DNA from: Caulobacter sp.
GTDB lineage: Bacteria; Pseudomonadota; Alphaproteobacteria; Caulobacterales; Caulobacteraceae
Length of the DNA stretch: 64,000 nucleotides
Reading direction: 5' to 3'
NCBI GenBank assembly: GCA_030680355.1
Contig: JAUXVF010000031.1
Location: forward strand, 1-64,000
Part shown: piece by piece, positions 551 through 8,443 of the stretch
Layout: each line of letters starts with the position of its first letter
How positions within the stretch are numbered: the first letter of the stretch is position 1
The notes under the pieces: model-generated
Databases searched by the model: none
The model's input: the letters and a program-made list of their open reading frames with translations, nothing else
Told to the model about the DNA's origin: nothing
Program-made: the position numbers and the translations under genes

Positions 551-1189
551 CTACAGCCTGGCGATCGGCTGCAGAATCCGTCCGAGCAGGCCCGGGAGCC
601 GAATCTGCCCCTCCAGCGAGGCGACGCAAAGGCAGGGGCCGTCGGCGTCGGCCACGGGCTGGTGGCGGGTCTCCGGCCCGGCCTCTTCAAGATCGCCGGG
701 GCCGAACCGGGCGACCTCGGTCGAGTAGGCTCCGGAAATCACACAGGTCAGTTCGGACCCGTCGTGGGTGTGAAACGGCGTCTTCCGTCCCGCGCCGATC
801 CTCAGCAGGATCACCCGGCAGTCGCCGTCCCGCGGGCCGAGCACGTCGCGGACATGCATGTCCGGCCCGATCCAGCGCCACGGGCCCAGCGGGTAGCGCC
901 GCAGGGGCTCGGGCAGTTCCGGCATGTCGTTGAGCGGCGCCGGCGCCGTGGCCACGCCGCCGTCGGCCTCGGCCCTGGCCAGGGCCTGGTCGAGGGCGCC
1001 GGGGGCCATGGCGGCGGGATCCAGTGACTCCAGCACCTGACCGCCGACGTCCTGCAGCCGGCGAACCCAGGCGGTCGACGTCGGGCTGAGCGCCAGATGC
1101 GTCGCCACGACCACCGCCTCGGGCGTGCGCAGGGTGCCGGCCGCATAGGCCAGCAGGGTGTCTTCATTGGGAAAGTGTTGAACCGTCAT
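551..1189 (-). CDS. chrR: ChrR-family anti-sigma factor with cupin domain, zinc cysteines of the N-terminal domain replaced
   Basis: Predicted cytoplasmic anti-sigma factor that holds the adjacent ECF sigma factor inactive until a stress signal (singlet oxygen or organic peroxide in characterised ChrR systems). The 212 residues match ChrR in length and layout: an N-terminal anti-sigma domain (about 1-85) and a C-terminal cupin-like domain (about 100-200). The cupin metal ligands are intact: H140, H142, E146 and H176. In the N-terminal domain H5 and H31 are kept, but the usual H-x3-C-x2-C reads HLALSPTS, so both cysteines are serine (S35, S38). The start codon overlaps the sigma stop as ATGA, so the two are translationally coupled. 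Identity as ChrR family is strong; whether the domain still binds sigma without zinc is open. Confidence 0.85.
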   Translation of the reverse strand: MTVQHFPNEDTLLAYAAGTLRTPEAVVVATHLALSPTSTAWVRRLQDVGGQVLESLDPAAMAPGALDQALARAEADGGVATAPAPLNDMPELPEPLRRYPLGPWRWIGPDMHVRDVLGPRDGDCRVILLRIGAGRKTPFHTHDGSELTCVISGAYSTEVARFGPGDLEEAGPETRHQPVADADGPCLCVASLEGQIRLPGLLGRILQPIARL

Positions 1190-1794
1190 GGCCGTTCGCC
1201 CAGGGAGTCCCGCAGTCTCAGCATCGCCAGCCGGATCCGTGACTTCACCGTTCCGAGCGGCAAATTCAGTTCCGTCGCGATGCGGGCGTGCGGCTTGTGA
1301 TGGAAAAAAGCCATCCGGACCACCTCGATCTGGTCGGCCGGAAGGCCTGACAGGGCCTGGCGCACCAGGGCCGCGTCGTTGCGTTCGGCGACAATATCGT
1401 CGGGCCGGGCCGGGGCGTCGGGCGCTTCGCTGAGGTCGAGCGCCAGCGGCGTCCGGCCCTCGCGGCGCAGGCTGTCGATGCGCAGATTGCGGGCGATGGT
1501 GAAGATCCAGGTCGCCGCGCCGGCCTTGGCCGGGTCGTAGAGTTCCGCCTTCCGCCAGACCGTGAGCATGGCGTCCTGGGCGAAGTCCTCGGCGGCGCCC
1601 GGGGTCGCGCCGCCGCTGATCAGATAGGCCTTCAGCCGGGGTGCGAAATGGTCGAACAGCCGCGCGAAGGCGGCCCGGTCCCGGGTCCGGGCGACAGCCA
1701 CGATCAACGCGCCGAAGTCGTCGGGCCGGCCGGGGCCGGTCACGGATTTGAACGCGGGCGGCGCGCGGCGCAGGAGGGAGGCATCGGAAACCAT
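1186..1794 (-). CDS. rpoE: ECF RNA polymerase sigma factor (RpoE/SigE, ChrR-partnered group)
   Basis: ECF-type sigma factor of 202 residues. Region 2 lies at about residues 43-112 (RLFDHFAPRLKAYL through AATWIFTIARNLRID). Region 4 is at about 140-195, with the helix-turn-helix LNLPLGTVKSRIRLAMLRLR. It is followed with ATGA overlap by the ChrR-like anti-sigma gene, the arrangement of RpoE-ChrR in Rhodobacter and SigE-ChrR in Caulobacter, which govern singlet-oxygen and peroxide responses. A promoter-like element just upstream (1801-1828) resembles the one reading the other way to the oxidoreductase, suggesting autoregulation. The -10 lies so close to the ATG at 1794 that the transcript would be nearly leaderless; a GTG start at 1743 is the alternative. 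Confidence 0.88.
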   Translation of the reverse strand: MVSDASLLRRAPPAFKSVTGPGRPDDFGALIVAVARTRDRAAFARLFDHFAPRLKAYLISGGATPGAAEDFAQDAMLTVWRKAELYDPAKAGAATWIFTIARNLRIDSLRREGRTPLALDLSEAPDAPARPDDIVAERNDAALVRQALSGLPADQIEVVRMAFFHHKPHARIATELNLPLGTVKSRIRLAMLRLRDSLGERP

Positions 1795-1800
1795 GCTCTC

Positions 1801-1828
1801 AATACGGTTCGTGGAAGCAACTGGATCA
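1801..1828 (-). promoter_or_regulatory. Putative ECF-type promoter of rpoE-chrR
   Basis: On the minus strand the sequence reads TGATCC, 16 bases, CGTATT. The GATC-containing -35 and CGTA-type -10 fit promoters described for the RpoE/ChrR class. A second element with the same spacing faces the other way 6 bp away, which makes chance less likely. The predicted transcription start falls at or next to the sigma ATG. Confidence 0.6.
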
Positions 1829-1833
1829 ACGGG

Positions 1834-1860
1834 TCATCCAAAACCGGCCGGGCTGCGTAT
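1834..1860 (+). promoter_or_regulatory. Putative ECF-type promoter of the FAD oxidoreductase/DUF1365 operon
   Basis: On the plus strand the sequence reads TCATCC, 16 bases, CGTAT. It matches the divergent rpoE element at 10 of 11 comparable -35/-10 positions with identical spacing. It would start transcription near 1867, giving a leader of about 55 bases to the ATG at 1923. Confidence 0.6.
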
Positions 1861-1922: not shown

Positions 1923-3284
1923 ATGTCCCTGTCCTTCCCCGCGCCGGCCGCGCCCTCGACCCTGACGTCCGGCAAACGCCAGCGCATCGCGGTGGTCGGG
2001 TCGGGAATCTCCGCCCTGTCCTGCGCCTGGTTGCTCAAACAGGGGCATGACGTGACCCTGTTCGAACGGGCCGATCGCCTGGGCGGCCATTCCAATACGG
2101 TGACGGCCCGGACCCCCGAGGGCGACATGCCGGTCGATACCGGTTTCATGGTCTACAACGCGCGCACCTATCCCAATCTGACGGCCCTGTTCGACCACCT
2201 CGCCCTGCCGACCCAGCCGACGGACATGTCGTTTTCGGTGTCGCTGGACAACGGCGGGTTCGAATACGCCGCCCCCGGCCTGTTCGCGCAGCGGCGCAAT
2301 CTGGTGCGGCCGCGGTTCTGGTCGATGATCCGTCAGGTGCTGCGTTTCTATCGGCAGGCGGGCGACGCGGCGGCGAGCCTGGAGGATCCCACTGTCACTC
2401 TCGGCGACTGGCTGGCCCGGAACGGCTTTGACCGTCGTCTGCGCGATGACCACCTGCTGCCGATGGCGGCGGCGATCTGGTCCGCCCCGGTCGAGACGCT
2501 CCTCGACCACCCCGCCGGCAGCTTCATCCGCTTCTGCCAGAACCACGGGCTGCTGCAGCTTCGCGACCGCCCGATCTGGCGGACGGTCAAGGGCGGCAGC
2601 CGGACCTATGTGCAGCGTTTGGCCGCGATGCTCGGCGACAGCGTGCGTCTGGGGTGCGGCGTGACCCGCGTGGAGCGGGTCGCCGACGGCGTCATGGTCC
2701 ACGACACGCAGGGACGAACGACCCGCTTCGACCAGGTGGTGATCGGGACCCATGCCGATCAGGCCCTGGCCATGCTGGCGGCGCCGAGCGAGGCGGAGCG
2801 CCGGCTGCTCGGCGCCTTCCGCTACAGCCGGAACATGACTGTGTTGCACAGCGACGCCAGCCTGATGCCCCGCCGCCGCCGCGCCTGGTCGAGCTGGAAC
2901 TATATGGGCGTCGATGACGGCCTGTGCGTCACCTACTGGATGAACCGGCTGCAGGGGCTGCCCGGGCGCGACCTGTTCGTGACCCTCAATCCGCCGCGCC
3001 CGCCCCGGCCCGACAGCCTGCTGCACAGCGAGCTCTACGAGCACCCGGTGTTCGACGCCGCCGCCGTCCGCGCCCAGCAGGACCTGTGGTCGTTGCAGGG
3101 GCAGGGCGGCGTCTGGTTCTGCGGGGCCCATTTCGGCGCCGGTTTCCATGAGGACGGGCTGCAGTCGGGGCTCGCCGTCGCCGAACAGCTGGGCGGCCTG
3201 CGTCGGCCCTGGACCGTCGCGGACGAAAGCGGCCGTATCCATGTCGCCCCCGTGGGCAGCCCCAGCCTGGCGCGGGCGGCATGA
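1923..3284 (+). CDS. FAD-dependent oxidoreductase (amine oxidase-like), probable ECF sigma target
   Basis: Flavoprotein of 453 residues with an N-terminal dinucleotide-binding loop, VVGSGISALSCAW at about residues 24-36, followed by ERADRLGGHSNTV, the FAD-contacting segment of the amine oxidase/desaturase-like family. The start is set at ATG 1923 because GGAG lies 9 bases upstream; an in-frame GTG at 1869 would put the start almost on the predicted transcription start. It overlaps the DUF1365 gene by ATGA. This oxidoreductase-DUF1365 pair is often seen in RpoE-ChrR regulons, where it is linked to lipid or fatty acid modification in photo-oxidative stress. The exact substrate cannot be read from the sequence. 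Confidence 0.85.
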   Translation: MSLSFPAPAAPSTLTSGKRQRIAVVGSGISALSCAWLLKQGHDVTLFERADRLGGHSNTVTARTPEGDMPVDTGFMVYNARTYPNLTALFDHLALPTQPTDMSFSVSLDNGGFEYAAPGLFAQRRNLVRPRFWSMIRQVLRFYRQAGDAAASLEDPTVTLGDWLARNGFDRRLRDDHLLPMAAAIWSAPVETLLDHPAGSFIRFCQNHGLLQLRDRPIWRTVKGGSRTYVQRLAAMLGDSVRLGCGVTRVERVADGVMVHDTQGRTTRFDQVVIGTHADQALAMLAAPSEAERRLLGAFRYSRNMTVLHSDASLMPRRRRAWSSWNYMGVDDGLCVTYWMNRLQGLPGRDLFVTLNPPRPPRPDSLLHSELYEHPVFDAAAVRAQQDLWSLQGQGGVWFCGAHFGAGFHEDGLQSGLAVAEQLGGLRRPWTVADESGRIHVAPVGSPSLARAA

Positions 3285-4054
3285 CCGACGCCTCGGGCCT
3301 CTATACGGGGATTGTCAGCCACAGCCGGCTGCGGCCGCGCCGGCACAGTCTGCGGTATCGGGTGTTCTGGACACTGTTTGATCTCGCCGAGCTCGAGACG
3401 CTCGATCGGCGTTCGCGGCTGTTTTCCCACAACCGGTTCAATCTGTTCGCCTTCCATGACCGTGACCACGGCGATGGAAGCGGTCCGCTGCGGCCGCAGA
3501 TTGTGGAACGGCTGGTCGAGGCGGGCGTGGATCTGAAGGGCGGGGCGATCCGGCTGCTCTGCATGCCGCGACTGCTCGGCTACGTCTTCAACCCGATCAG
3601 CGTCTATTTCTGTCACCGCCCCGACGGCGGCCTGGCGGCGCTGATCTATGAGGTCACCAACACCTTCGGCGCGCGGCATTCCTATCTGATCCCGACCAAG
3701 CCGGGTGACGAGGGCGCACCGGTCATCCGCCAGCGGAGCGCCAAGCAGCTCTATGTTTCACCGTTCATGGACATGGACCTGACCTATGATTTCAAGGTGA
3801 CGCCGCCGGGGGAGTCGGTCGCCCTTCAGGTCCGCTGTTCCGACGCGGACGGGCTGATGCTGACGGCGACCATGGCCGGTCGGCGGTCGGCCCTGACCGA
3901 CGCCGGCATCCTGCGCGCCGCGGCGACCCACCCGCTGCTGACCCTCAAGGTGGTGGCGGGCATCCATTGGGAAGCCCTGATGCTGTTCCTCAAGGGCGTG
4001 CGTCTGACCCGGCAGCCGGCCCCGCCGAAGCGGTCGTTCTCGATCGTCAGGTAA
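3281..4054 (+). CDS. DUF1365 family protein
   Basis: Protein of 257 residues with DUF1365 signatures: an early GIVSHSRLRPRRHSLRYRVF segment, then RLLCMPRLLGYVFNPISVYF at about residues 88-107, and SPFMDMDLTYDF near 167. Family members usually sit beside an FAD oxidoreductase and sometimes a cyclopropane-fatty-acid synthase-like methyltransferase. Here only the oxidoreductase is present, immediately upstream with an ATGA overlap. The molecular activity of DUF1365 is not assigned here. The gene ends convergently with the acyl-CoA dehydrogenase, the two stop regions overlapping by 8 bases, which implies shared or bidirectional termination. Confidence 0.87.
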   Translation: MTDASGLYTGIVSHSRLRPRRHSLRYRVFWTLFDLAELETLDRRSRLFSHNRFNLFAFHDRDHGDGSGPLRPQIVERLVEAGVDLKGGAIRLLCMPRLLGYVFNPISVYFCHRPDGGLAALIYEVTNTFGARHSYLIPTKPGDEGAPVIRQRSAKQLYVSPFMDMDLTYDFKVTPPGESVALQVRCSDADGLMLTATMAGRRSALTDAGILRAAATHPLLTLKVVAGIHWEALMLFLKGVRLTRQPAPPKRSFSIVR

Positions 4055-5240
4055 GCTCTTCCGACGAATAGCCGAGGATCTCGCGGGCGATGATCAGCCG
4101 CTGGATCTGGCCGGTGCCCTCGTAGATGTCGCTGATCCGGCCGTCGCGCAGGTATTTCTCGACCAGATGGTCGTGGCTGACCGACATGCCGCCGAGCAGC
4201 TCCATCGCCGCCTGGGGAATGGTGCGGCAAACCTCGCCGCCCTTGGCCTTGCAGACCGAGCTTTCCAGGTTGTTGGGCTGGCGGGTGTCGCTGAGCCAGG
4301 CGGCGTGCAGCACCGACAGGGTGGCGGCCTCGGTGTCGGCCTCCATCTCGATCAGCTTCTGTTCGACGGCGCTGCGCTGGTTGAAGCTCTTGTCCCAGTC
4401 GACCGTGACGCCTTCCTCGGCCAGGGCGGCCTTGGCGAACTCCAGCGCCCCCTTGGCCTTGGCGACGCCGCCCGAGGCGACCGCCGGACGGGTCATGTTG
4501 AAGGTCTTCATGACGCCCTTGTAGGAGGCCGAGCCGCCGCCTTTGGGCACCGTCTCGTCGCCGCCCAGCAGGCTGTCGCGCGGAATGCGGCAGTCGCGGA
4601 AGGCGTAGGCGGCGGTGTCCGAGGCCCGGATGCCGAGCTTCTTTTCCTGACGGACCAGTTCGAAACCGGGCGCGTCGCGCAGCACCAGGAAGGACTTGAT
4701 GCCGGCGCGGCCCGCCGATTTGTCGATGGTCGCCCAGACGATGGCGCCGTCGCATTTTACGCCGTCGGTGACGAATATCTTGTCGCCGTTCAGCACCCAT
4801 TCCTCGCCGTCGAGACGGGCGGTGGTCTGGATGGCCTTGGTGTCGGATCCGGCGCCGGGCTCGGTGATCGACATCGACAGGAACAGGTTGCCCCATTTGG
4901 TCTTCTGCTCGGCGGTGCCGGCCGACTGCAGGGCGGCGTTGCCCAGGCCGCTGGCGCGACCGGACGGCATGGCCAGGCCGAGACCCCGGACCACGCCGCT
5001 GGTCGAGCCGCGGGCGATGCTGACGGCCATCATGAAGGTCATCATCGGGGTGTCGTCGGGCTGGCGCTGGCCGAACAGCGGGAACACCTCCTCGAAACCG
5101 CGTTCGCCCTCCAGCCGGGCCGGCGGCGTCTCGTGCTCGTGGTCTTCGTAATAGCGGGTGTGGGCGGTCGTCGAATTGCCGACCTCGATCACCTTGTCGA
5201 GGATCTGCTGGTCGATCGCGGAGAGACGGAAGTCTGCCAT
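4047..5240 (-). CDS. Acyl-CoA dehydrogenase with canonical catalytic Glu
   Basis: Flavoenzyme of 397 residues predicted to introduce an alpha-beta double bond in an acyl-CoA thioester. The middle domain carries SITEPGAGSDTKAIQTTA (about 125-142), the usual flavin/substrate-contacting stretch, and WVLNGDKIFVTDG. The C-terminal domain has SDIYEGTGQIQR, whose Glu is the catalytic base position of most family members. The start has GGGAAC 8-13 bases upstream. It lies 12 bases downstream of a second acyl-CoA dehydrogenase gene, so the two are co-transcribed. The N-terminus (YYEDHEHETPPARLEGER) is unlike short-chain enzymes; substrate is unknown. Confidence 0.88.
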   Translation of the reverse strand: MADFRLSAIDQQILDKVIEVGNSTTAHTRYYEDHEHETPPARLEGERGFEEVFPLFGQRQPDDTPMMTFMMAVSIARGSTSGVVRGLGLAMPSGRASGLGNAALQSAGTAEQKTKWGNLFLSMSITEPGAGSDTKAIQTTARLDGEEWVLNGDKIFVTDGVKCDGAIVWATIDKSAGRAGIKSFLVLRDAPGFELVRQEKKLGIRASDTAAYAFRDCRIPRDSLLGGDETVPKGGGSASYKGVMKTFNMTRPAVASGGVAKAKGALEFAKAALAEEGVTVDWDKSFNQRSAVEQKLIEMEADTEAATLSVLHAAWLSDTRQPNNLESSVCKAKGGEVCRTIPQAAMELLGGMSVSHDHLVEKYLRDGRISDIYEGTGQIQRLIIAREILGYSSEELT

Positions 5241-5252
5241 GAGCGGGGTTCC

Positions 5253-6365
5253 CTAAACCGAGACCGGACCGTCGAGGACGGTCAGCGTGCGGGCGTTGCG
5301 AAGCCACATTTCCAGCGGCAGGTCGCGGATGAAGCCATGGCCGCCGAAGATCTGCAGGGCGTCGTCGGCGATCTTGATGGCTTTGCGGCGAACGTAGTCC
5401 TGGGCCAGCACGCTCGCCCTGGCGGCGCCGGGATCATTGTGCTCGAGCAGGCTGGCGGCCTTCCAGACCATCCAGCGCATGGTCTCGCACTCGATATGCA
5501 TGTCGGCCAGCATGAAGGCGATCGACTGTTTCTTGCCGATCGGCTCGCCGAAGGCGACGCGCTCCTTTGCGTAGGGAAGGGCGTAGTCGGTGGCCTGGCG
5601 GCAGAGGCCGACCGCGACGGCGGCGGCCCCGATGCGGGCCTGATTGACCAGTCGACCGGCGTCGATGCCGGCGTCGCCGCCGAGCCGCGCCGAGCCGGGC
5701 AGCTCGACGGCGTTCAGCGTGATCCTGGCCTTGGGCACCGGCTTGAGACCCTGGCTGCCGCTCTCGGCGGTCACGGTCAGGCCCGCCGCATCCCGCGGCA
5801 CGATGAAGGCGGACACCGCGCCCAGGCCGTCGCCGTCCGGATCGCGCGCCAGGACGAGGAAGTGGTCGGCCTGGTCGCCCAGGGGAATCAGGCGCTTCTC
5901 GCCGTTCAGCACCCAGCCGTTGCCCTTGCGGGTGGCCGTGGTGCGCTGGGCCTCGGCGGCGAAGCCGAACTGGCTTTCCTGCAGGGCCAGACCGGCCGCG
6001 ACGGGCGTGGGACCGGCAAAGCGGGGCAGATGCTCGGCCTTCTGCTCTTCGGTGCCAAAGTCGATCAAGGCGCTGACAAATTGGCCGGGGGCCATGATGG
6101 CGACGGCCTGGCTGGCGCAGCCGCCGCCCAGGGCCTCGAGGACAACGGCGTTGGTCATGCAGGACCGGTCGCCGCCGCCGCCGCCGTAGGCTTCCGGGAT
6201 CGAGGCCGCGATCAGGCCGAAGTCCCAGCCCGCCTGGATGACCTCGGCGGGCATCTCGCCGGCCTCGTCGATGGCCCGCGCCCTGGGCGCCAGCACCTCG
6301 GCCGCGAAGCCCTGCAGGCTCTCGCGGATCATGGTCTGCTCTTCGCTGAGCGCGAATGTAATCAT
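5253..6365 (-). CDS. Acyl-CoA dehydrogenase with DGP in place of the YEGT motif
   Basis: Acyl-CoA dehydrogenase of 370 residues, start at ATG 6365 with GGGGAG 7-12 bases upstream (longer frames lack a ribosome site). Typical features: LSEEQTMIRESLQGFAAE at the N-terminus, LQESQFGF where most enzymes have TEP-type loops, WVLNGEKRLIPLG, and QIFGGHGFIRD near the C-terminus. The catalytic segment reads LTVLDGPVSV and then stops. The usual Y-E-G is therefore L-D-G, resembling the DGP motif of ACAD10/11-like proteins, and the final helix of the family is missing. Paired with the canonical gene downstream it may be the partner subunit of a heteromeric enzyme; that is inference. Confidence 0.85.
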   Translation of the reverse strand: MITFALSEEQTMIRESLQGFAAEVLAPRARAIDEAGEMPAEVIQAGWDFGLIAASIPEAYGGGGGDRSCMTNAVVLEALGGGCASQAVAIMAPGQFVSALIDFGTEEQKAEHLPRFAGPTPVAAGLALQESQFGFAAEAQRTTATRKGNGWVLNGEKRLIPLGDQADHFLVLARDPDGDGLGAVSAFIVPRDAAGLTVTAESGSQGLKPVPKARITLNAVELPGSARLGGDAGIDAGRLVNQARIGAAAVAVGLCRQATDYALPYAKERVAFGEPIGKKQSIAFMLADMHIECETMRWMVWKAASLLEHNDPGAARASVLAQDYVRRKAIKIADDALQIFGGHGFIRDLPLEMWLRNARTLTVLDGPVSV

Positions 6366-6522
6366 GTCAGTCTCCCCTTGCGTCATGGTTCGCAGACCAA
6401 CCGAAGGGAAGGCAAGACGCTTCTTGCCGCGGCGCGGCGGCCTGACGTCGCACGTCTTGACGGCCGGTCGCCAAAGGTCCGCAATGCGGGCCAACGAACA
6501 AACCATCCAGGGAGGATGCGCC

Positions 6523-7704
6523 ATGGCTTATGTCGAGGGCCAGACGGTCCATGACGCCGACAGTCACATCATGGAGCTGCCGGGGACGATCAACCGCTAC
6601 ATCGAGCCGCGGTTTCGCGACGCCTTCGTGGAGAAGACCGGCCGCAAGGACGTGCTGCCCGAGTTCTTCGCCAACGCCGCCGCCAAGGCCAGTGACCCCG
6701 AGTTCCTAGCCGGCGCCGAGGCCAACATCCTGCTGCGCAAGAACTACGAGGCCCTGGGCGCCTTCAATAGCGGCGACCGGCCCCGGACTCTAGACTGCCT
6801 GGGGTTCACCTCGCAGCTGGTCTTCACCACCGCCTGCCTGTCCAACTTCGGACTCGAACAGGCGGGCGAGGTCGAGCTGGCCGTCGAGGCGGCCCGGGCC
6901 CACAACCGGATGATGACCGAGTTCTGTTCGGTCGACCGCCGGCTGCTGGCCACCGGCTACGTGCCGCTTGTCGACCGCCAGCGGGCGCCGGAGATTGCTC
7001 GTGAGGCCCTGGCCCTGGGCGCCAAGGGCCTGGTCGTGCCGTCCCGCCATCCGCCCGGTTTCTCGCCCAGCCACCGCGAGCTCGATCCGCTGTGGGCCCT
7101 GGCCCAGGAGGCCGGGGCGCCGATCCTCTTCCATGTCGGCGGCGAGGAGAAGATGCATGGCGACTATCTCGAAAACGGCCTGCCGTTCGTGAAGGACTTC
7201 CACGGCGGCGACGAGAACTTCACCTCCCTGACCTTCATGGCCATCCCGCTCAGCGTCTGGCAGACGCTGTCGGCCCTGGTCATCGACGGGGTGTTCGACC
7301 GCTTCCCGAGGCTGAAGTTCGGGGCCATCGAACTGGGCGCCTCCTGGCTGCCCAGCCTGATGAAATTCCTCGACTCCGGCTGCGCGGCCTTTGGTCGGGA
7401 AGAGCGGCTGCAGGCCCTGTCGGGGACGCCGTCGGAAATCCTGCGTCGCCAACTCCGGGTCACGCCCTATCCGCATGAGGATGTTCGCTGGATCATGGAG
7501 AATTCGGGCGAGGAGATGGTGTTGTTCTCGTCCGACTTCCCGCACGTAGAAGGTGGCCGTAACCCTTTGAAACGGTTCAACGACAGCCTGGCAGGCGTCG
7601 ATGAGGCGGTGAAGCGGAAATTCTACCGCGACAACTTCATCGACCTGATGGGCGCCGGCCTCGCCGAGGACCTTCACGACCTGCCGTCGCTGCGGGCGGC
7701 CTGA
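6523..7704 (+). CDS. Amidohydrolase family 2 (ACMSD-like TIM barrel) protein
   Basis: Metal-dependent hydrolase/decarboxylase of 393 residues, start set by GGAGG 8-12 bases upstream of ATG 6523. The N-terminal HDADSHIMELP is the altered metal-binding strand (D-x-H) typical of the family; ILFHVGGEE (about 203) holds a conserved His and LFSSDFPHVEG (about 336) holds the conserved Asp near the C-terminus. Family members include amidohydrolases and ACMSD-type decarboxylases of aromatic catabolism. It stands divergent from the two acyl-CoA dehydrogenases with about 157 bases between the starts, and is followed by a nitroreductase, which fits a degradative cluster. Substrate unknown. Confidence 0.85.
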   Translation: MAYVEGQTVHDADSHIMELPGTINRYIEPRFRDAFVEKTGRKDVLPEFFANAAAKASDPEFLAGAEANILLRKNYEALGAFNSGDRPRTLDCLGFTSQLVFTTACLSNFGLEQAGEVELAVEAARAHNRMMTEFCSVDRRLLATGYVPLVDRQRAPEIAREALALGAKGLVVPSRHPPGFSPSHRELDPLWALAQEAGAPILFHVGGEEKMHGDYLENGLPFVKDFHGGDENFTSLTFMAIPLSVWQTLSALVIDGVFDRFPRLKFGAIELGASWLPSLMKFLDSGCAAFGREERLQALSGTPSEILRRQLRVTPYPHEDVRWIMENSGEEMVLFSSDFPHVEGGRNPLKRFNDSLAGVDEAVKRKFYRDNFIDLMGAGLAEDLHDLPSLRAA

Positions 7705-7765
7705 CGGACCACGCCGTCCGAAGCGTGCTACAGACAGGCCAACGAGGCAGTAGGCGAGTTCAGAT

Positions 7766-8443
7766 ATGCAGTTCGATGACGTGGTGATGGGACGGCGGAG
7801 CGTCCGTGGCTACAAACCTGATCCGGTGCCCAAGGCGCTGATCAAGGAGATCATCGAGATCGCCATGCGCGCGCCCTCGTCGCTCAACACCCAGCCCTGG
7901 AACTTCTATGTCGTTGCCGGCGAGCCCCTCGACCGGATCCGCGCCGGCAACACCGAACGCAACCTGGCGGGCGTGCCGTCATCCCGCGAGTTCCGCAGCC
8001 ATGGCGAATACGCCGGGCCGCACCGCGAGCGGCAGATCGAGATCGCCAAGCAGCTGTTCGGCGCCATGGGGATCGAGCGGGACAACAAGGGAAAGCGGAT
8101 GGACTGGGTCATGCGCGGCTTCCGCCAGTTTGACGCGCCGGTCTCCGTGGTCGTGACTTATGACCGCTCGATCCACGGCGGCGACATCGGCCCGTTCGAC
8201 TGCGGCGCGGTCGCCAACGCCCTGGTCAACGCGGCCTGGTCCCGCGGCCTGGGCTGCGTGATCAACAGCCAGGGCATCATGCAGTCGCCGGTGGTGCGCG
8301 AACATGCCGCGATCCCCGAGGACCAGGTGATCATGATCTGTATCGCCATGGGCTATCCCGACGACGCCTTCCCGGCCAATGCGGTGGTCTCCCGCCGCAA
8401 GTCCGTCGATGAAGCGGCCGTGTTCGTCGGCTTCGACAGCTAG
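7766..8443 (+). CDS. Nitroreductase family FMN protein
   Basis: Flavin-dependent nitroreductase-fold enzyme of 225 residues. The N-terminal MGRRSVRGYKPDPVP holds the arginine pair (RRS-R) that contacts FMN phosphate; RAPSSLNTQPWNFYVV (about 35-50) is the family's conserved flavin-binding segment, and GCVINSQGIMQS and the C-terminal MGYPDD complete the fold. Such enzymes reduce nitroaromatics, quinones or enones using NAD(P)H. The start lies about 60 bases after the amidohydrolase stop, so it is probably in the same transcript. It ends 4 bases inside the convergent trmL stop. Confidence 0.9.
   Translation: MQFDDVVMGRRSVRGYKPDPVPKALIKEIIEIAMRAPSSLNTQPWNFYVVAGEPLDRIRAGNTERNLAGVPSSREFRSHGEYAGPHRERQIEIAKQLFGAMGIERDNKGKRMDWVMRGFRQFDAPVSVVVTYDRSIHGGDIGPFDCGAVANALVNAAWSRGLGCVINSQGIMQSPVVREHAAIPEDQVIMICIAMGYPDDAFPANAVVSRRKSVDEAAVFVGFDS

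Follow-up and report, generated by a model that had tools for sequence, protein, structure and literature searches.

The chrR locus and its zinc-ligand positions

Near the start of the window, i.e., the whole 64,000-nucleotide stretch of Caulobacter sp. DNA analysed here, an ECF sigma factor gene and chrR lie on the minus strand, back to back with a divergent gene pair on the plus strand:

551..1189, minus strand: chrR, encoding a ChrR-family anti-sigma factor of 212 aa with a zinc-less anti-sigma domain and a cupin domain (TIGR02451, NF051881, 2z2s_B; predicted model against 2q1z_D)
1186..1794, minus strand: ECF sigma factor gene, overlapping chrR in an ATGA (2q1z_A, E 4.3e-45; Sigma70_r2 and r4_2)
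1802..1828, minus strand: putative ECF11-like promoter, TGATCC-N16-CGTAT, before the sigma-chrR operon (pattern match)
1834..1860, plus strand: mirror-image site, TCATCC-N16-CGTAT, before the divergent genes (pattern match)
1923..3284, plus strand: gene for a flavin amine oxidase-like protein, starting at ATG 1923 or possibly GTG 1869 (PF01593, E 2.6e-27)
3281..4054, plus strand: gene for a DUF1365 protein (PF07103, E 4.8e-80)

The chrR product exceeded the cut-offs of two curated models, TIGR02451 (206 bits against a cut-off of 124.5; residues 5-211) and NF051881 (328.9 bits against 300; residues 5-212), the latter titled "cadmium/peroxide/UV radiation responsive anti-sigma factor ChrR". Since the match spans the whole protein, a cupin-like domain with all four metal ligands is present, and the adjacent sigma gene is of ECF11 type as judged by its nearest solved relative, R. 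sphaeroides SigE, we assign the protein to the ChrR family. Its own nearest solved relative is R. sphaeroides ChrR (PDB 2z2s_B, E 2e-30), a homologue over the whole length, whose gene likewise follows that of its sigma partner, SigE (ECF11; 2Q1Z, 2Z2S). A structure predicted from 27 sequences (mean pLDDT 86.6, pTM 0.79) resembled R. sphaeroides ChrR, with Z 21.8 over 175 residues and rmsd 2.5 against 2q1z_D, and a Foldseek E of 4.2e-16 against 2q1z_B; such a model speaks to fold and says nothing on stability without metal.

The two promoter-like sites are separated by five bases and point in opposite directions. They are the only matches to the pattern in the window, where 0.06 would be expected and two or more occurred in 1 of 100 shuffles, the pattern itself having been built from these sites. 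Genome-wide, TGATC-N17-CGTAT occurred at four sites; the analysis covered the window's, and we claim no regulon from them. Whether the amine oxidase gene begins at GTG 1869 or ATG 1923 is uncertain; the plus-strand site at 1834-1860 stands just before it. The amine oxidase-like and DUF1365 genes are presumably homologues of RSP_1091 and RSP_1090. Further along, positions 4047-8443 hold two acyl-CoA dehydrogenase genes on the minus strand and amidohydrolase and nitroreductase genes on the plus strand, none of them evidently connected with the sigma factor.

The residues of ChrR that bear on zinc and cupin metal binding are as follows, the codon coordinates of H31, S35, and S38 having been counted from the start of the open reading frame:

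962..1189, minus strand: anti-sigma domain, residues 1-76, with predicted helices at 9-17, 22-34, 36-55, and 65-75 (predicted model; alignment to 2z2s_B)
1172..1174, minus strand: F6, where zinc ligand H6 would stand (alignment)
1097..1099, minus strand: H31, the sole zinc ligand kept, found in 64/66 of the clade described below (alignment)
1085..1087, minus strand: S35 (AGC), replacing zinc ligand C35; Arg in 60/66 of the clade (alignment, codons)
1076..1078, minus strand: S38 (TCG), replacing zinc ligand C38; Asn in 32 and Thr in 26 of 66 (alignment, codons)
1067..1069, minus strand: W41, a clade-specific Trp, 63/66 against 0/177 others (alignment counts)
620..880, minus strand: cupin domain, residues 104-190, with metal ligands H140, H142, E146, and H176 and the pair C186, C188 (Pfam Cupin_7, 27.7 bits against a cut-off of 27)

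An earlier note on this DNA had placed serines at the positions of the two zinc cysteines of R. sphaeroides ChrR, and S35 and S38 indeed occupy them in a full-length frame. The note was also right that the cupin ligands are kept: H140, H142, E146, and H176 match H141, H143, E147, and H177 of R. sphaeroides, and C186-x-C188 corresponds to its C187-x-C189. Its reading of H5 and H31 as the surviving zinc ligands stood for H31 and fell for H5. Both histidines are present, but the ungapped alignment to 2z2s_B puts F6 opposite H6, and column 6 is His in 112/113 cysteine-bearing relatives, as compared with 90/113 for column 5. Three of the four zinc ligands are thus lost, not two, leaving H31 alone. 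The zinc-binding anti-sigma (ZAS) motif is given as H/C-x24/25-H-x3-C-x2-C (PMC6432622), whereas the window has H31-x3-S35-x2-S38 with F6 at the first ligand. Nor have the cysteines moved: the anti-sigma domain contains none, and the protein's only cysteines are C124, C149, C186, and C188. Among the differences from R. sphaeroides, F6, S35, S38, and W41 stand where that protein has H6, C35, C38, and R41.

A clade of ChrR proteins lacking both zinc cysteines

Relatives recovered by a scan of genome contigs and a genus-wide search came from Brevundimonas, Phenylobacterium, and the window's own genus, and all those more than 50% identical to the window's protein lack both cysteines. With loci from the family and class added, we define the window's clade as the 66 distinct sequences above this identity; C35 and C38 are both absent from 66/66. 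Position 35 is Arg in 60, Lys in 4, Gln in 1, and Ser only in the window, and position 38 is Asn in 32, Thr in 26, Ser in 3, and another residue in 5. The loss of the cysteines is therefore a property of the whole clade, while the exact Ser/Ser pair, whose conservation among close homologues the earlier note had proposed to check, is found within the clade in the window alone (1/66). A private Ser/Ser mutation was rejected accordingly; as far as the alignment tells, the pair is how a loss ancestral to the entire clade has come to look in the window. The codons fit this: AGC (S35) is one step from CGC, used by 23/66 of the clade, and TCG (S38) is one step from ACG, used by 7/66, so that the simplest history of positions 35/38 would run from Cys through an Arg/Thr-like pair to Ser/Ser.

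In a 150-row tree built after removal of columns 5, 31, 35, and 38 (rows at least 80% identical to a kept row having been dropped, 203 to 150), the 19 rows of the clade formed one group with 99% SH-aLRT support, and the window fell inside it with 87% support. P36 is present in 66/66 members, and C124 and C149 are also conserved. Trp at position 41, one helix turn past position 38, occurs in 63/66 clade rows vs. 0/177 others (Phe in 4 of the others); judged from this placement, W41 could cover the former zinc site. As a side observation, a metagenome-assembled genome titled Bordetella (L009, JAFKFS010000017.1) carries a Brevundimonas-type chrR, 66-67% identical to that of the window, and the record is probably misnamed.

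Within the clade, helices 1-3 of the anti-sigma domain had a mean pairwise identity of 0.768 and the cupin one of 0.781, as compared with 0.531 for the linker. Median dN/dS gave the same ranking at 0.303 for the domain (1771 pairs), 0.214 for the cupin (1774), and 0.522 for the linker (1726), in pairs that are non-independent and often diverged, so that the anti-sigma domain is less constrained than the cupin. A sigma gene lies directly upstream of chrR in 66/66 clade rows, and a site similar to the window's promoter precedes it at 43/66 loci, by a pattern made from the sequences themselves; 23/66 loci gave no match, and a looser pattern applied to three of these 23 recovered the TCATCC form in two. 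By these comparative measures, the anti-sigma domain in the window's clade is conserved, not decayed.

Recurrent loss of the zinc site with an intact cupin

To place the clade among its relatives, loci were drawn from four taxonomic ranks, most of them being the highest-scoring matches rather than a random sample, and identical proteins were merged. Matches occurred in 41/75 genomes of the genus (30 loci taken), 147/298 of the family (30 loci and 40 picked regions), 161/387 of the class (30 loci and 60 picked regions), and 144/200 of the order (10 loci and 40 picked regions). With these last 40 regions added, the set comprised 243 distinct ChrR rows including R. sphaeroides. Both cysteines were present in 134 rows (133 with the complete H/H/C/C set), one in 4, and neither in 105, of which 66 belong to the window's clade and 39 lie outside it. 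All 243 rows have the cupin ligands HHEH, an invariance partly built in because the models and profiles used to find the rows all contain the cupin, and 242/243 have C186.

We then mapped the presence or absence of both cysteines on a tree of ChrR plus sigma with columns 5, 6, 31, 35, and 38 removed (181 rows, after dropping those at least 75% identical to a kept row from the 243). The state changed at least 14 times, with 7 changes forced by well-supported branches. These trees are quick searches with SH-aLRT support only, and the counts carry no direction; because it is implausible that a four-ligand site arose again and again, we read the changes as losses. A single zinc-less clade, in which 33 zinc-less rows were held together, was rejected (AU p 0.00016) in a 67-row subset made up of 8 clade rows, 25 other zinc-less rows that have a sigma gene and no gap in the ligand columns, and 34 rows taken at random from 116 with both cysteines.

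Zinc-less proteins outside the clade are less uniform. In 20 such rows, identity was 0.306 for the anti-sigma domain vs. 0.423 for the cupin, while 113 cysteine-bearing rows gave 0.443 vs. 0.404. Because the domain is here less conserved than the cupin, some zinc-less proteins outside the clade may no longer bind sigma. Immediately upstream there is a sigma gene in 34/43 of the other rows whose ligands are lost or incomplete, as compared with 125/134 cysteine-bearing rows, the R. sphaeroides row being scored as a miss because it has no locus. One zinc-less protein of another lineage (L219) has the same Ser/Ser pair as the window, though its locus showed no adjacent sigma gene.

Two apparent regularities did not survive. 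C188 is kept in 18/39 zinc-less rows outside the clade, in 125/134 cysteine-bearing rows, and in 65/66 clade rows, and although these raw counts suggest a link between loss of zinc and loss of C188, independent pairs on the tree gave it no support. Replacement of position 35 by a helix-capping residue (Ser, Asn, or Asp) as a general rule was also rejected, since it accounts for 15/39 zinc-less rows outside the clade and Arg is commoner (16/39). The Pfam model zf-HC2 matched 19/36 cysteine-bearing and 2/19 clade representatives, and with these two clade matches it does not cleanly part the two states.

Eight rows (L034, L062, L063, L121, L123, L124, L126, and L127) form a separate ChrR-like group with 99% support, in which the cupin is intact and the N-terminal half, strongly diverged or shortened, has no zinc motif. 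Eleven others from other families of the order (L245, L248, L250, L253, L258-L261, L263, L265, and L268) combine H31 replaced by Gln with loss of both cysteines. In L165, L206, and L216, C35 and H31 are kept, C38 is Ser, and H6 is lost; these are possible intermediates. Within the window's genome, no zinc-bearing paralogue was found and TIGR02451 matched once; as the assembly is 90.87% complete, a paralogue could have been missed. A weak protein hit, L002 (E 0.057, 38% over residues 85-132), was rejected as a second ChrR after the ChrR profile found nothing there.

How a zinc-less ChrR might work

The earlier note left a choice between a zinc-independent sigma-binding domain and a poorly restrained sigma factor. 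Clade-wide conservation, purifying selection, the adjacent sigma gene in every clade row, and the recurring promoter all point to the first, from which we infer that the window's anti-sigma domain is independent of zinc. The likeliest mechanism, and one we consider reasonably probable on these comparisons, pairs such a domain with a cupin that senses singlet oxygen. ChrR would be a working anti-sigma factor whose N-terminal domain folds and holds the ECF11-like sigma without zinc, with packing inside the protein (the conserved P36 and W41 at the start of helix 3) lending the stability that the metal would otherwise provide. The cupin metal site together with C186-x-C188, and not zinc-finger oxidation, would read singlet oxygen and probably cadmium, and the freed sigma factor would turn on the operon that encodes it as well as the divergent genes for the amine oxidase-like and DUF1365 proteins.

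There are precedents for such a domain. The zinc-free class I anti-sigma factors RseA and RskA hold their sigma factors with the same kind of helical domain, and RsiW has the zinc motif and yet binds its sigma without needing zinc (PMC7406223), although all three belong to other ECF groups than the window's ChrR. RseA keeps a similar fold by protein-protein contacts in place of zinc (PMC6852236). In the class I tree, domains with the motif (~56%) and without it (~44%) are intermixed, and ~72% of the soluble members have it (PMC7406223). Zinc-free anti-sigma domains are thus a known kind; AS19-1 and AS27 are named as mixed groups, and ChrR's group, AS11, is not so named in the parts of that source consulted (PMC7406223). 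To this the present analysis adds repeated loss, mapped within the ChrR group, together with an invariant cupin and a Trp specific to one clade. We know of no cupin sensor in RseA, RskA, or RsiW.

The contrary reading is that loss of zinc weakens the anti-sigma domain, leaving the sigma factor poorly restrained and its regulon partly constitutive. In R. sphaeroides, inhibition requires zinc and substitution of the zinc ligands abolishes it (PMC6852236), and a model peptide of the zinc site is mostly unfolded without metal and, on reacting with singlet oxygen, unfolds (PMC6432622). The stronger divergence of zinc-less domains relative to the cupin outside the clade also favours this reading. 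Within the window's clade, however, the domain is under purifying selection, which a slack domain would not need, and the C. crescentus system, very probably of the same clade, is reported to be inducible (PMC3818230), which requires a repressed resting state. We consider a poorly restrained sigma unlikely for the window, and missing zinc ligands should not be taken to predict a free sigma factor.

We give little credence to a domain that still binds metal through other residues, e.g., H5 and H31 plus residues that are polar or acidic. H31 is kept in 64/66 clade sequences and H5 is present in the window, but position 5 is Arg in 48/66 and His in only 12/66, and the window's domain has no Cys and no His beyond these two. 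That the serines are a sequencing error, or that the gene is decaying in the window's genome alone, is scarcely credible: the assembly is in 31 contigs at 90.87% completeness and the exact pair is unique within the clade, but the other 65 distinct clade sequences also lack both cysteines, the frame is full length and above two curated cut-offs, and both serine codons are single steps from codons of the clade.

An anti-sigma domain that holds its sigma without zinc remains our preferred reading, within limits set by R. sphaeroides. There the cupin is required for the response to singlet oxygen, while inactivation of ChrR by t-BOOH proceeds even when the cupin is not intact; induction by singlet oxygen or t-BOOH needs E147 and H177 and not C187 and C189, according to a 2019 review (PMC6852236). 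Since t-BOOH acts without an intact cupin, the peroxide route is kept out of the proposed cupin sensing; with C187 and C189 dispensable as well, the cupin and the cysteine pair cannot account for every response. The same review describes the precise role of the anti-sigma zinc in the singlet-oxygen response as unknown (PMC6852236). A natural ChrR with a cupin and without the zinc site makes this question directly testable, and if such a protein still responds to singlet oxygen, which is very probably the case in C. crescentus, oxidation of the zinc finger cannot be how sensing works in general. The zinc of ChrR is probably a replaceable structural prop. A wider proposal, which we advance tentatively and would expect to fail slightly sooner than to hold, is that the ECF11 anti-sigma zinc is such a prop, discarded at least seven times with the cupin left intact; that singlet oxygen is sensed via the cupin half, with zinc-finger oxidation no general step; and that W41, as an aromatic plug, came to replace the zinc in the Caulobacter-type clade.

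Model scores link the window's clade to the ChrR studied in the laboratory. Of 14 control genomes, that of C. vibrioides alone passed the NF051881 cut-off, as does the window, a likeness shared with the C. crescentus/vibrioides SigE-ChrR system. All 19/19 clade representatives matched NF051881 (best E 1.5e-117; scores compared with the cut-off for the window only), whereas the best of 36 cysteine-bearing representatives reached 202.6 bits (E 5e-60), below the cut-off of 300, and among 24 other rows whose ligands are lost or incomplete the best E was 7.1e-53. From this pattern, the zinc-less clade very probably includes C. crescentus ChrR; within it, S35/S38 is the window's variant and R35 with N/T38 the usual form. 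No statement that Caulobacter ChrR lacks the zinc ligands was found in the literature searched; Lourenco and Gomes 2009 may have one. Caulobacter sp. K31 is reported to have rpoE-chrR beside RSP_1091 and RSP_1090 homologues, whereas in other C. crescentus strains these do not cluster with rpoE-chrR (PMC3818230).

RpoE of C. crescentus is reported to be inducible by singlet oxygen, t-BOOH, cadmium, and UV-A, and individual signals may depend on specific residues of ChrR (PMC3818230). For the response to cadmium, two conserved cysteines in Caulobacter ChrR are important (PMC3511200). C186 and C188 are the obvious candidates, but C124 and C149 are conserved in the window's clade too.
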